A stretch of 30,102 bases of DNA from Candidatus Abyssobacteria bacterium SURF_5 (GTDB lineage: Bacteria; Abyssobacteria; SURF-5). Where the stretch lies: contig QZKU01000129.1 of NCBI GenBank assembly GCA_003598085.1, positions 1-30,102 on the forward strand, read 5' to 3'. The notes below the pieces were generated by a model that did not search any database, was not told where the DNA came from, and was given only the letters and a program-made list of their open reading frames with translations. Positions 26,688 through 30,102 of this stretch are shown here, piece by piece. The position numbers were made by a program, and so were the translations under genes. Numbering within the stretch: position 1 is the stretch's first letter; each line of letters starts with the position of its first letter.

Positions 26688-26924
26688 TTAAAAACCTAGT
26701 TCTCCGTCTTCGATGTCAAGCGCTAAGGATATCGCAAGCGCGTTCCGGAGCATGAAGGAGCCGTAGCTTTTTGCCAGATGTAGCAAGTGTTCAGCGGCTC
26801 GTGGAGTCCAGTCTCCCTCTTGAACGAGCACATCTTCAAGCGCTTCTTTTGAAACAGTCTCAGTGTCCCCCAAAAGCGCCCGGTACTCATCAACAAGGGA
26901 GCTTACGTCCTCAATTGTGTTCAT
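26688..26924 (-). CDS. Small orphan protein (78 residues), unknown function
   Basis: MNTIEDVSSLVDEYRALLGD and following is an acidic, helix-rich, soluble protein with no signal peptide or membrane segment; it ends in IEDGELGF. The start is well supported: GAGGAGG lies 7 bases before ATG 26924. I do not recognise the family. It may pair with an unlinked partner or be an acquired small regulator. It sits just left of the AT-rich helicase island and 177 bases after the helicase stop on the same strand, so membership in that module cannot be excluded but is not shown. Its stop abuts degenerate repeat DNA. Confidence 0.65.
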   Translation of the reverse strand: MNTIEDVSSLVDEYRALLGDTETVSKEALEDVLVQEGDWTPRAAEHLLHLAKSYGSFMLRNALAISLALDIEDGELGF

Positions 26925-27101
26925 TGATAAGCCTCCTCAGTCCTATAGAATACTCTTGACTCAGCCATTGGAATGATACATCGACTATTCGAAAAGTTCA
27001 AATGATCGATCGCGGGCCGCCAATATGATCAGACTGTCTCGAAAAATATGAAGTTGATGTTTTCCGGCTTATGGAAGGTACGATGGAAGGCTTGAAAGGT
27101 C

Positions 27102-29123
27102 CTACTCGAGTTCGGATATTTCTAAATTGGGCACTCCGGCTGCTTTGATGAGGTCATAGACGCGATTGAACCTGTGCGGATCTCTTGTGGGATCGGATTC
27201 ATCTCCCGGAGGTACCCAAATCACCATTCCGCACCTTGCCCTCGTAAGAAGCACCCGATATCGATTACGAATATATTCCTGTTCGACAGCTTGTCGGCAC
27301 CTTTGCCACTTGGACCCTCTGAAGTTACGATACTCCCACTCCTCACCGGTTTCATCTGGTGTCAGGTCTCCACCCCAACAAACGCCCACCCAATCAAGTT
27401 CGAGTCCTTGGCACTCGAATTCGGAGGCAGCTACTTCAAGCTGGAAACTGGAGCGGATGTCATCCGGTCCAGCCAAATACCATTTTTCGAAGGGATAGTC
27501 AGAGCGGAAATTCGAAGATGCTTCAAGGCCGTACGCACGCAGGCGCTGATCTTCAGAGGTACTGATAAGACCGCAACGTAAATTTCTATCTGAAAAAGTC
27601 CGCAACCTTAGCCAGCGTCGTGCATCCTCCAAATCACGAGTAACAACAACAGGAAATTCGCGAGTATCTGGAAGTTTTTCGAACGTTCTGATGGTATCAA
27701 GTTCTAGAAGGGCATTCACCCATTCTGCGATAAGTTGGGCACGGTGACTGCGGACACTAACACTTAAGTGAAAGAGTGGCTCTGCAACAACTTCCATATT
27801 TAAAGCCGTCTGATCATCAAATAGTCGATGATCGGCCACGCTGGCTCCTCCTGATAACGCCTCTGGCGACGCGACTACTGACCATTTCTTTTGCGAAGAT
27901 AGCAGGGCTCGTCCCCATTCTTCAAGTCCGGCCTCGCCCAAATATATCTCCTGCCCTCCGCCAACTAAAGCTATGATAACGGCCCAATCAGAAAAACGTT
28001 CCATCACTTCAAGTAATTGGGCAGGTTCGGAAATATCCAAAGATCGTTTCCGCCTCATCTGCTTCCGATCCCATGCGCGCTGAGCCTCGTCAAAAATCAC
28101 CACGTGCTCGTGTGGCACGGCGTCAGGATTTTCATGGTGATGGCTCAGGAAGGTATGCACGTTTTGTATGAAGATCTCCACTTCATATTTGCACTCGCGG
28201 CGTTTGTGCCCTTGTCTCATCTGGTTCTGAACGATGGCTTCACGGATAATTTTAACGAGTGGTCCGTTTCCAGAAAGAAAGATGCCTGAAGGCCCTTGTT
28301 TAGAGCGAATTGCGGGATCATGGACGACGTTCAACCCTGTCAAAGTCTTGCCGGCTCCGGGCACACCAGTAACGAAACAGATGGTATGTTTTCGCTGCGC
28401 CTTGGAGCCTGCAATTATGTTCATTAGCATATCTGTCGTCTTGTCGAGATTTTCCGCATAGCTATGCGAAATTTCACGAACATCCTGACGGTCATAAAGT
28501 CTCTCTGCGGCTTCGATAACAGTCAACGTTGGCCGATAAGCAGAATTCAGCCATTCATCTGCTTGAATGGGCATTTCTTGCTTTCGTTGGAATGCATCAA
28601 AGCATCTCTTTAGACAAGCTCCTAATTTTTCTGAATTAGTTGTTTGAAGATTCGCAACTGAATCTGAAAGCAGAAAATTTTGCATCGCATCTGGAAGCTT
28701 GGCGTCGGCTGCACAAAGAATCGGGATAATACGACGGCTTGCGCTCTCGGCGTGAAAATCTCTCAAGTTCAGGGCATAGTCTTCTGCTTGCCAGCGGGAG
28801 GAAGCTTCAAAAGATGTCGCGGCAAATTTGAATTCTAAGACCATTACGATATCATGAGCTAGGAATATGACATCTGGTCTCTTCTGCCTCCTTGGAATTT
28901 CGTATTCAAGAATGATATGCCAGAGCCCAACCCGAGGGTCTTCGCAGACAAGAAGCCGAAGCTGGGTTTTCAGGACATCAACTTCTTCTGCCCACACCCG
29001 TATTTGTCGGCTTTGCTGACTTTCAAATCCGCTATTTGCGATCGCAGTGACGAGTCTACCGACAATATGATCTTTATCGGTTGTGAGAAATTCTCTCACT
29101 GAGGATGCGAATCCGGCCGCCAT
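27102..29123 (-). CDS. PD-(D/E)XK-like nuclease fused to Schlafen-group-3/DUF2075 helicase
   Basis: 673 residues from ATG 29123 (GAAGGTG about 8 bases upstream). The frame opens at 29363 but that part overlaps the XRE gene and has no signal. Residues about 65-120 look like a restriction-type nuclease core: E74, RPDVIF with Asp84, VMVLEFKF with Glu97 and Lys99, and a QAEDY motif (Gln112, Tyr116). Walker A VTGVPGAGKT (251-260) and Walker B VVIFDEAQ (341-348) begin the superfamily-1-like DUF2075 (SLFN-g3 helicase) domain. It continues through SVRSHRAQ, a GLELDWVGV segment and the motif-VI-like RYRVLLTRARCGMVIWVP. All motifs look intact. Nucleases joined to such helicases are candidates for anti-phage or mobile-DNA control. 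The gene is distinctly AT-rich and forms an operon with the XRE gene 43 bases upstream. Confidence 0.88.
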   Translation of the reverse strand: MAAGFASSVREFLTTDKDHIVGRLVTAIANSGFESQQSRQIRVWAEEVDVLKTQLRLLVCEDPRVGLWHIILEYEIPRRQKRPDVIFLAHDIVMVLEFKFAATSFEASSRWQAEDYALNLRDFHAESASRRIIPILCAADAKLPDAMQNFLLSDSVANLQTTNSEKLGACLKRCFDAFQRKQEMPIQADEWLNSAYRPTLTVIEAAERLYDRQDVREISHSYAENLDKTTDMLMNIIAGSKAQRKHTICFVTGVPGAGKTLTGLNVVHDPAIRSKQGPSGIFLSGNGPLVKIIREAIVQNQMRQGHKRRECKYEVEIFIQNVHTFLSHHHENPDAVPHEHVVIFDEAQRAWDRKQMRRKRSLDISEPAQLLEVMERFSDWAVIIALVGGGQEIYLGEAGLEEWGRALLSSQKKWSVVASPEALSGGASVADHRLFDDQTALNMEVVAEPLFHLSVSVRSHRAQLIAEWVNALLELDTIRTFEKLPDTREFPVVVTRDLEDARRWLRLRTFSDRNLRCGLISTSEDQRLRAYGLEASSNFRSDYPFEKWYLAGPDDIRSSFQLEVAASEFECQGLELDWVGVCWGGDLTPDETGEEWEYRNFRGSKWQRCRQAVEQEYIRNRYRVLLTRARCGMVIWVPPGDESDPTRDPHRFNRVYDLIKAAGVPNLEISELE

Positions 29124-29166
29124 GGCTAAGCACCTTCGGAAGTCAGTTGGTCTGGCACAAAAATCA

Positions 29167-29415
29167 TTATTGCTGTCGGGTGTCTTCTTCAAGTTTTCTG
29201 AAGAAGCTAAAGAGCGAAATCTCAAGCGCCTTTGCGATTTCGAGAAATTCCACCACGTCAAGCCTTCGTTCGCCTCGCTCATATTTCGAGACGAAGGATT
29301 GCGGGCGCGACAACTTTTCCGCCACCTCCTTTTGAGTAAGTCCGGATTTTTTCCGCGCCTCAATCAGGAGCTTGCGGAACTTGTTGTATTTGTTTGTGAA
29401 AGGAGATTTTTGCAT
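29167..29415 (-). CDS. XRE-family HTH regulator preceding the nuclease-helicase gene
   Basis: 82 residues. The HTH_3 fold covers about 13-66: LIEARKKSGLTQKEVAEKLS, then RPQSFVSKYERGERRLDVVE, with the characteristic GLTQKEVA and SKYERGERR elements. It would bind DNA as a dimer, probably repressing its own operon. A 32-base dyad overlaps the promoter just upstream (29427-29458). ATG 29415 has no ribosome site and lies 5 bases from the -10, so the mRNA may be leaderless. The stop is 43 bases before the helicase start. It is AT-rich like its partner and unlike the left part of the window. Confidence 0.9.
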   Translation of the reverse strand: MQKSPFTNKYNKFRKLLIEARKKSGLTQKEVAEKLSRPQSFVSKYERGERRLDVVEFLEIAKALEISLFSFFRKLEEDTRQQ

Positions 29416-29420
29416 GGTTG

Positions 29421-29450
29421 AATATAAACCTAGAATGGGATAAAACCCAA
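29421..29450 (-). promoter_or_regulatory. Candidate promoter of the XRE/nuclease-helicase operon
   Basis: On the minus strand TTGGGT (29450-29445) is followed after 18 bases by TATATT (29426-29421). The -10 ends 5 bases before the ATG at 29415, so the transcript would start near the codon and be leaderless or nearly so. The -35 is poor, which fits a repressible or activated promoter. Confidence 0.4.
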
Positions 29451-29458
29451 AACAGGTT
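29427..29458. promoter_or_regulatory. 32-base dyad, candidate operator of the XRE regulator
   Basis: AACCT-N4-TGGG-N6-CCCA-N4-AGGTT is symmetric about 29442.5, with both pairs of arms sharing one centre. It covers the -35 and spacer of the promoter. The size and position fit a dimeric XRE repressor site for autoregulation. Confidence 0.45.
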
Positions 29459-29596
29459 ATCTATAGAGGCGGGTCATTGATTTCCCTGGTGGATACGAGG
29501 TTTGCTTCCGAGGGGGCTCAGGTAGCTCAAGAATTGGTTCTAAGAAGTAAGCCGCTATGTCCCAAGAGAAAAAGCCGATCTACAATCGCACGTCTT

Positions 29597-29872
29597 TTAT
29601 TTCTTTCGCGAACGTATTCGGGTATCGTTCTTCAGAATCTGTTCCGCCTTCGAAAGAATTGCGGCGGGTGTGATTTTTAATGCTTTTGCTATGTGGAGCA
29701 GGCTTAGTACGGTAACGTTTTTCTCTCCGCGCTCCACGCTGCCGATATAGGTGCGATGTAAATCGGCTTTTTCGGCGAGGCCTTCCTGGCTCAAGTTAGC
29801 TGCGGTGCGGAGGACGCGAATTGCCAAACCTACCGCCATAAGATATTTTTGGTCACGAGGTAATCTTCGCAT
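29597..29872 (-). CDS. Second XRE-family HTH regulator
   Basis: 91 residues. The HTH spans about 15-70: LAIRVLRTAANLSQEGLAEK, then ADLHRTYIGSVERGEKNVTV. The HRTYIGSVERGEKN block is typical of regulators related to controller proteins of restriction-modification and other defence loci. There is a 181-base gap on its 3' side before the first XRE gene, so the two are probably separate transcription units. ATG 29872 follows directly on a 16-base palindrome and lacks a ribosome site, suggesting a leaderless, autoregulated mRNA; the in-frame ATG 29839 is a less supported alternative. No restriction enzyme or methyltransferase gene lies beside it within the window. What it regulates is unclear; the adjacent helicase operon is a candidate. 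Confidence 0.9.
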   Translation of the reverse strand: MRRLPRDQKYLMAVGLAIRVLRTAANLSQEGLAEKADLHRTYIGSVERGEKNVTVLSLLHIAKALKITPAAILSKAEQILKNDTRIRSRKK

Positions 29873-29888
29873 GCTACTTAAAAGTAGC
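29873..29888. promoter_or_regulatory. Palindrome GCTACTT-AA-AAGTAGC abutting the second XRE start codon
   Basis: Perfect 7-base arms around AA lie directly against the ATG at 29872. XRE and controller proteins often bind such sites at their own promoters, and occupancy here would block transcription initiation or early translation. Confidence 0.5.
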
Positions 29889-29993
29889 AGCGAGTGGGGC
29901 GTTTTTCTACAGACTAGAAATAGCGACGACAGAAGAGCCTGTTACGAGTTCCAACCAGGTTACAAGTTGAAGTGGGGCCGCGTATTCTGGATT

Positions 29994-30012
29994 CACAGGC
30001 GAAACGCCTGTG
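29994..30012. repeat. Short hairpin CACAGGCG-AAA-CGCCTGTG
   Basis: A perfect 8-base inverted repeat followed by CTA. It resembles the hairpins at 3663-3679 and 26183-26197. It lies 3 bases before the apparent 5' end of a group II intron. Confidence 0.55.
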
Positions 30013-30015
30013 CTA

Positions 30016-30102
30016 GTGCGCCTGCAAGCAGGCGCGACCAGAGAGGTGAAAGTCCTCTTCGGAAGATGTCCACTTCCGTTAGCCGAAGGTAACTGCGTCG
30101 CC
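30016..30102 (+). mobile_element. Probable 5' end of a group II intron (cut by window edge)
   Basis: GTGCGCC, the classical group II 5' start, is at 30016. It is followed by a hairpin GCGCCTG-CAAG-CAGGCGC, then GAGAGGTGAAAGTCCTCT and CCGTTAGCCGAAGGTAACTG, which match from memory the start of domain I in many bacterial group II introns. The reverse-transcriptase gene and the catalytic domain V would lie beyond 30102, so completeness is unknown. It sits just 3' of a short hairpin repeat, a position favoured by some intron classes. Confidence 0.5.

Follow-up and report, generated by a model that had tools for sequence, protein, structure and literature searches.

A PDC-S41 nuclease-helicase with upstream XRE regulators in Candidatus Abyssobacteria bacterium SURF_5: a candidate phage defence module with a possible link to group III Schlafens

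Nuclease and helicase domains are joined in a single protein in Nhi of Staphylococcus epidermidis, for which published work reports activation by phage single-stranded DNA-binding protein (SSB; PMC10732053) and degradation of phage replication intermediates (PMC11084316), and which offers a tested single-enzyme precedent. Hna, an abortive system that was also reported to be triggered by phage SSB (PMC10732053), likewise carries helicase and nuclease domains in one protein. PDC-S41 is a single-gene phage defence candidate (model PDLC05014, PADLOC-DB 2.0.0) whose name carries no domain anatomy or mechanism. Here we analyze a nuclease-helicase fusion gene and the small XRE-type regulatory genes upstream of it on contig QZKU01000129.1 of Candidatus Abyssobacteria bacterium SURF_5, the whole 30,102 nucleotides (nt) of which are referred to here as the window. 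The window is one of 145 contigs of a 5.1-Mb genome, and its phylum is represented by three genomes in our data. The genes of interest form a minus-strand block (26688-29872) with the gene order XRE2, XRE1, nuclease-helicase, and a 78-amino-acid open reading frame (ORF).

Our data indicate that the fusion is, judged by its sequence, a full-length member of the catalogued PDC-S41 family. The gene (27102-29123, minus strand) runs from an ATG at 29123 to a stop at 27102 and encodes 673 amino acids; the mechanical ORF opens earlier, at a TTG, but the homologues begin at the ATG at 29123. Residues 2-668 align with positions 3-654 of the 657 positions in the PDC-S41 profile of PADLOC (750 bits, E 3.9e-226), and all aligned homologues (70/70) match the same model. 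This end-to-end match overturns one part of the original prediction, which had called the locus an undescribed defence module, while the domain anatomy, the coupling to controller-like regulators and the 78-amino-acid neighbour described below come from the present analysis. The PADLOC model for Nhi gave only 16.7 bits (E 5.5e-4), so that Nhi is an analogue from another family, and the likeness to Hna is one of architecture only.

The N-terminal part of the protein, residues 1-222 (28458-29123, minus strand), is predicted to be a PD-(D/E)XK nuclease domain. We found that the AlphaFold2 model of these residues has a mean predicted local distance difference test (pLDDT) score of 91.0 and that its matches among solved structures are Can2 (Z 9.6), Cdn1 (8.6), McrC (7.4) and EndoMS (7.4), further Upx, and then NucC and Holliday-junction resolvases, all of them PD-(D/E)XK nucleases. 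Can2, Card1, McrC, NucC and Upx (Z 5-9.6) are defence nucleases among these matches. The PD-(D/E)XK order is satisfied by D84, E97-x-K99 and Q112-x3-Y116, and the full catalytic set of E73, D84, E97, K99, Q112 and Y116 is invariant in 69/69 homologues that hold the region (70 aligned). Across seven diverse homologues, E73, R78, R82, D84, E97, K99, Q112 and Y116 were invariant together with the helicase motifs (7/7). The catalytic residues first read from the sequence (Asp84, Glu97, Lys99, Gln112/Tyr116) were thus correct, with E73 now added to them. A Foldseek search of the PDB with this model returned no match under E 1e-3, and a sequence profile of the nuclease domain alone found nothing convincing. 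Since the moderate structure scores combine with a conserved motif, we regard the predicted fold assignment as firm.

The C-terminal part carries a superfamily 1 helicase of the SLFN-g3 family (PF09848, residues 247-638, 27210-28385, minus strand; Pfam E 1.1e-79), the only Pfam family above the cut-off in the protein. Its Walker A motif, GVPGAGKT (residues 253-260, 28344-28367, minus strand), keeps its glycines as well as K259 and T260 in all 70 homologues, and the Walker B or DEAQ box (residues 345-348, 28080-28091, minus strand) retains D345, E346 and Q348 in 70/70 and A347 in 68/70. Both motifs and a C-terminal TRAR motif are intact, which bears out the earlier view of one large protein with a nuclease core and an intact DUF2075/Schlafen-group-3 helicase. 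The model of the whole protein has a mean pLDDT of 90.4, and its helicase half matches structures of UvrD, SLFN11, SLFN14, Dda, Pif1 and RecD; in a sequence search of the PDB, matches were confined to the P-loop region of SLFN5/11 and of other ATPases. A housekeeping RecD or UvrD identity was rejected, as the architecture is wrong.

Two small regulatory genes precede the fusion gene, as had been noticed at the outset, and both were confirmed as HTH_3 proteins. XRE1 (29167-29415, minus strand; 82 amino acids, HTH_3 E 8e-13) ends 43 nt before the fusion ATG; its best PADLOC match is capH (35.9 bits), and it reaches 30 bits with the Control_protein model. XRE2 (29597-29872, minus strand; 91 amino acids, HTH_3 E 3e-11) ends 181 nt before XRE1 and resembles the controller (C) proteins of restriction-modification (R-M) systems, with 65.7 bits in Control_protein, the best match to that model in the genome. 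Among the homologues, the gene directly upstream encodes an XRE protein in 12/88 loci, compared with 4/1173 genes elsewhere (Fisher p 9e-12), a contrast somewhat favoured by a profile built partly from these same upstream genes; an independent Pfam scan identified HTH_3 as the only recurrent upstream family (11/82). At most of these loci the XRE gene overlaps the fusion gene or lies immediately next to it. An upstream XRE gene thus recurs among the homologues, but because most of them have none, the regulator is an optional add-on. XRE coupling probably had several origins, as parsimony on the homologue tree requires six changes.

We found that nine of the ten homologue XRE proteins scanned match Control_protein (68-85 bits). 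Beyond the repressor of the initial reading, the regulator is of the R-M controller type for XRE2 and for most XRE-coupled relatives. A C.PvuII-type C-box consists of two copies of GACT-tat-AGTC around a central GT (PMC4824078). Upstream of the homologue XRE genes, scores out of 18 positions were 18 in L045 (a perfect C-box), 15 in L022 and L024, 14 in L026 and 13 in L063, while none of 837 control upstream regions reached 14 and five reached 13. L022, L024 and L026 are close relatives, as are L045 and L063, which places C-boxes in two independent clades. These features resemble the C proteins of type II R-M systems, except that the gene under control encodes a nuclease-helicase and that no methyltransferase was recognised close to it. 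The flanks of XRE-coupled homologues, searched by motif and not by profile, showed no recognisable methyltransferase; the possible exceptions, in L071 and L079, are two proteins at a distance of 3-4 kb that were not assignable with certainty. The window ORFs examined show none either, although only 230 nt of contig lie upstream of XRE2. From these sequence comparisons, we infer that a C-type circuit may control the fusion gene of the window. In two Flavobacteriaceae (L043 and L071) another long palindromic operator-like element, ATACTTATTGTATG...CATACAATAAGTAT, lies upstream of the C-like gene.

The original prediction also placed the module in an AT-rich island, and this was borne out (48% versus 56% GC in the rest of the contig). 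The GC fraction of 27102-29888 is 0.481, compared with 0.559 +/- 0.013 in equal-sized windows within 1-26650, and GC at third codon positions (GC3) is 0.445 for the fusion gene versus 0.61-0.78 for other genes. Given this foreign base composition, the block at 26688-29872 was probably acquired horizontally. A single-sequence scan of the genome-contig collection found no relatives; an alignment scan found 391, of which 80 were kept. Full-length relatives are spread across many bacterial phyla and also appear in two thaumarchaeal records. They are present in only a few of the 98 sampled genomes, and the homologue tree mixes phyla in a way unlike species descent. Few relatives were found in the mobile sets: four in viral contigs, one in a phage scaffold and four in plasmids.

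Taken as a whole, our analysis makes it fairly likely that this PDC-S41 protein is an acquired, self-contained and regulator-timed nuclease-helicase that would degrade foreign DNA or its replication intermediates, and the window fusion is a candidate for anti-phage defence. We infer DNA as the substrate, phage as the target, and timing as the role of the regulators. The superfamily 1 helicase would load on and move along DNA, probably at single-stranded stretches or forks, of an incoming or replicating phage or plasmid, and its translocation would bring the PD-(D/E)XK domain to cut the DNA. As no recognised methylase marks self, discrimination between self and foreign DNA would come from the structure of the DNA or of its replication, as has been suggested for Nhi. 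The upstream XRE genes might keep expression low or delay it, like R-M controller proteins, and delayed expression would spare the host when the island enters a new cell.

Recurrence in defence islands, which had been put forward as a check on such a role, was found in part: some relatives stand beside R-M, McrBC or DISARM-type genes, but many stand singly. Locus L010 has a type I R-M system and McrBC, as annotated, near the homologue, and reading of translations gave McrBC-, HsdM- and HsdS-like ORFs in L012 and Dcm-, Vsr- and Z1-like ORFs in L013. In PADLOC, the neighbours of the homologues matched 107 model families versus nine in a control.

Several observations weigh against the defence proposal. 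Many homologues lie alone among housekeeping genes, and the PADLOC excess among neighbours comes largely from a single locus, L014. The literature searched yielded no experimental test of the PDC-S41 family. XRE1, the regulator nearer to the fusion gene, is only weakly C-like, and the window has no significant C-box against the C.PvuII-type consensus, other C-box classes being known to exist: a weak C-box-like core, TATTTCTAGTCTGTAGAAAAACGCCC (29897-29922, minus strand), upstream of XRE2 scores 11/18 (shuffle p 0.14), and the best score at XRE1 is 9/18 (p 0.92). An operator search at XRE1 gave no convincing palindrome. A perfect palindrome, CACAGGCGTTTCGCCTGTG, far upstream of XRE2 was not counted as an operator, since it overlaps in part with an element that recurs elsewhere in the genome.

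We considered whether the protein might instead be an auxiliary effector of DISARM, type I or II R-M, or McrBC, degrading DNA marked or cut by a partner, in which case the window copy would be a remnant or orphan. The closest homologue (61% identity), in L014 from a Solidesulfovibrio metagenome-assembled genome, argues for such a role. It lies within a DISARM-like operon (L014 1647-17177) with the order relaxase, C5 methylase (DrmMII-like), SNF2 helicase (DrmD-like), the PDC-S41 relative, Eco57I/MmeI-type methylase (DrmMI-like), UvrD-like helicase and DUF2290, where the DrmD and DrmMI matches were assigned to L014 from domain content, as the scan output names no locus. The relative and the DrmD-like gene overlap by 4 nt, and a gap of 2 nt separates the relative from the DrmMI-like gene. 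The homologue in L025 similarly shares 4 nt with a C5-methylase gene, and a partner of the window copy could lie beyond the contig end 230 nt upstream of XRE2. Most homologues, however, have no such partner, and the XRE-coupled copies show no methyltransferase in the flanks examined. We consider the auxiliary role rather unlikely.

A role for the family in DNA repair or genome maintenance is somewhat harder to sustain, and we judge it improbable. The protein would then be a repair or recombination nuclease-helicase like Dna2 or AddAB, acting on flaps and breaks in host DNA and moving between genomes without a defence role. Foldseek and VIA-align matches to RecBCD, AddAB and Dna2 are consistent with this, as is the solitary position of many homologues between housekeeping genes. 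The small share of the 98 sampled genomes that have the gene, its occurrence in many phyla, archaea among them, with a distribution that does not resemble species descent, its foreign base composition and the defence-type neighbours in L010, L012, L013 and L014 all argue against it.

The 78-amino-acid ORF (26688-26924, minus strand) lies 177 nt downstream of the fusion gene, has no Pfam match and belongs to a rare family found in 2/241 genomes. Two homologues of it (E 1.7e-13 and 2.1e-12) are immediate, divergently oriented neighbours of the PDC-S41 gene in L085 (5137-5433, minus strand) and L092 (7660-8004, minus strand). In the second genome with the family, the member (L152 5730-5984, minus strand) follows a 258-amino-acid ORF that reads, from its translation, as an HNH endonuclease; no PDC-S41 gene was found in that genome. 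No relatives of the 78-amino-acid protein were found in viral contigs or plasmids. Because only two of the homologue loci examined have the family, we rejected it as an obligatory partner, and we treat an accessory role linked to a nuclease only as a lead. A toxin-antitoxin-like module, in which a toxic nuclease-helicase would be restrained by an XRE protein or the 78-amino-acid protein at the protein or transcript level and so cause addiction or abortive infection, would fit the small XRE genes coupled upstream and the rare 78-amino-acid family, which neighbours the fusion gene at three loci and an HNH-type gene in a further genome, but is quite implausible given that the coupled XRE proteins are C-protein-like with DNA operators, which points to transcriptional control, and that most homologues have neither gene and thus no obligatory antidote.

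The remainder of the window gives the setting of the block. Positions of approximately 1-26600 hold ordinary genes, including a sulfatase, an aminotransferase, efflux parts, a phosphotriesterase, and members of the BrkB and PAP2 families. The promoter scan returned eight matches compared with 3.4 +/- 2.1 in shuffles, none of which suits the start of the minus-strand cassette, and the terminator scan of the window was near chance. The last 87 nt (30016-30102, plus strand) read GTGCGCC...GAGAGGTGAAAGTCCTCT, with the signature GTGCG...GTGAAAGTCC, and resemble the 5' end of a group II intron, probably cut by the contig end. An Rfam search of the window gave no match. Other group II domain V copies occur in the genome, on contigs C35, C73, C88 and C100, several of them at contig ends, and an intron copy at the window end would explain the contig break there. 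The adjoining group II intron of the original prediction is only partly supported, by the sequence signature and the genomic copies but not by Rfam. A 37-nt repeat (92%) with the palindrome CACAGGCG-TTT-CGCCTGTG is shared between 29978-30014 and C46:19346-19382.

Vertebrate group III Schlafens (SLFN5, SLFN11 and SLFN14) have the PF09848 helicase family in common with the fusion. Classical Schlafen identity was rejected: there is no Schlafen RNase core, PF09848 is the only family above the cut-off, and residues 1-222 fold, in the model, as PD-(D/E)XK. We found that model residues 7-639 align collinearly with SLFN11 405-899 (Z 18.7, root-mean-square deviation 8.5 Å, 391 residues) and that the nuclease domain alone aligns with human SLFN14 400-554 (9jr9_A; Z 5.9), within the linker domain as delimited in PMC12499436. 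Since a Z below 8 can reflect a common arrangement, the modelled resemblance of the nuclease domain to the linker is only a lead. The bacterial domain differs in that it keeps the full PD-(D/E)XK set. We tentatively raise the possibility, which we hold to be less than even, that PDC-S41 corresponds, in prokaryotes, to the C-terminal half of vertebrate group III Schlafens, that the linker of SLFN5/11/14 is a decayed PD-(D/E)XK nuclease, and that a bacterial antiviral nuclease-helicase entered an interferon-induced antiviral protein.

Our analysis gives a catalogued candidate an anatomy in which the residues of two predicted enzyme sites are named, together with a regulatory logic derived from R-M systems and a possible small partner. 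The new part is the regulatory wiring, namely a controller protein, a C-box in relatives and no recognised methylase. The linker domain of SLFN5 has been called 'of unknown function' (PMC8789055); if true, the structural link to PDC-S41 would suggest a former role for the Schlafen linker domain.

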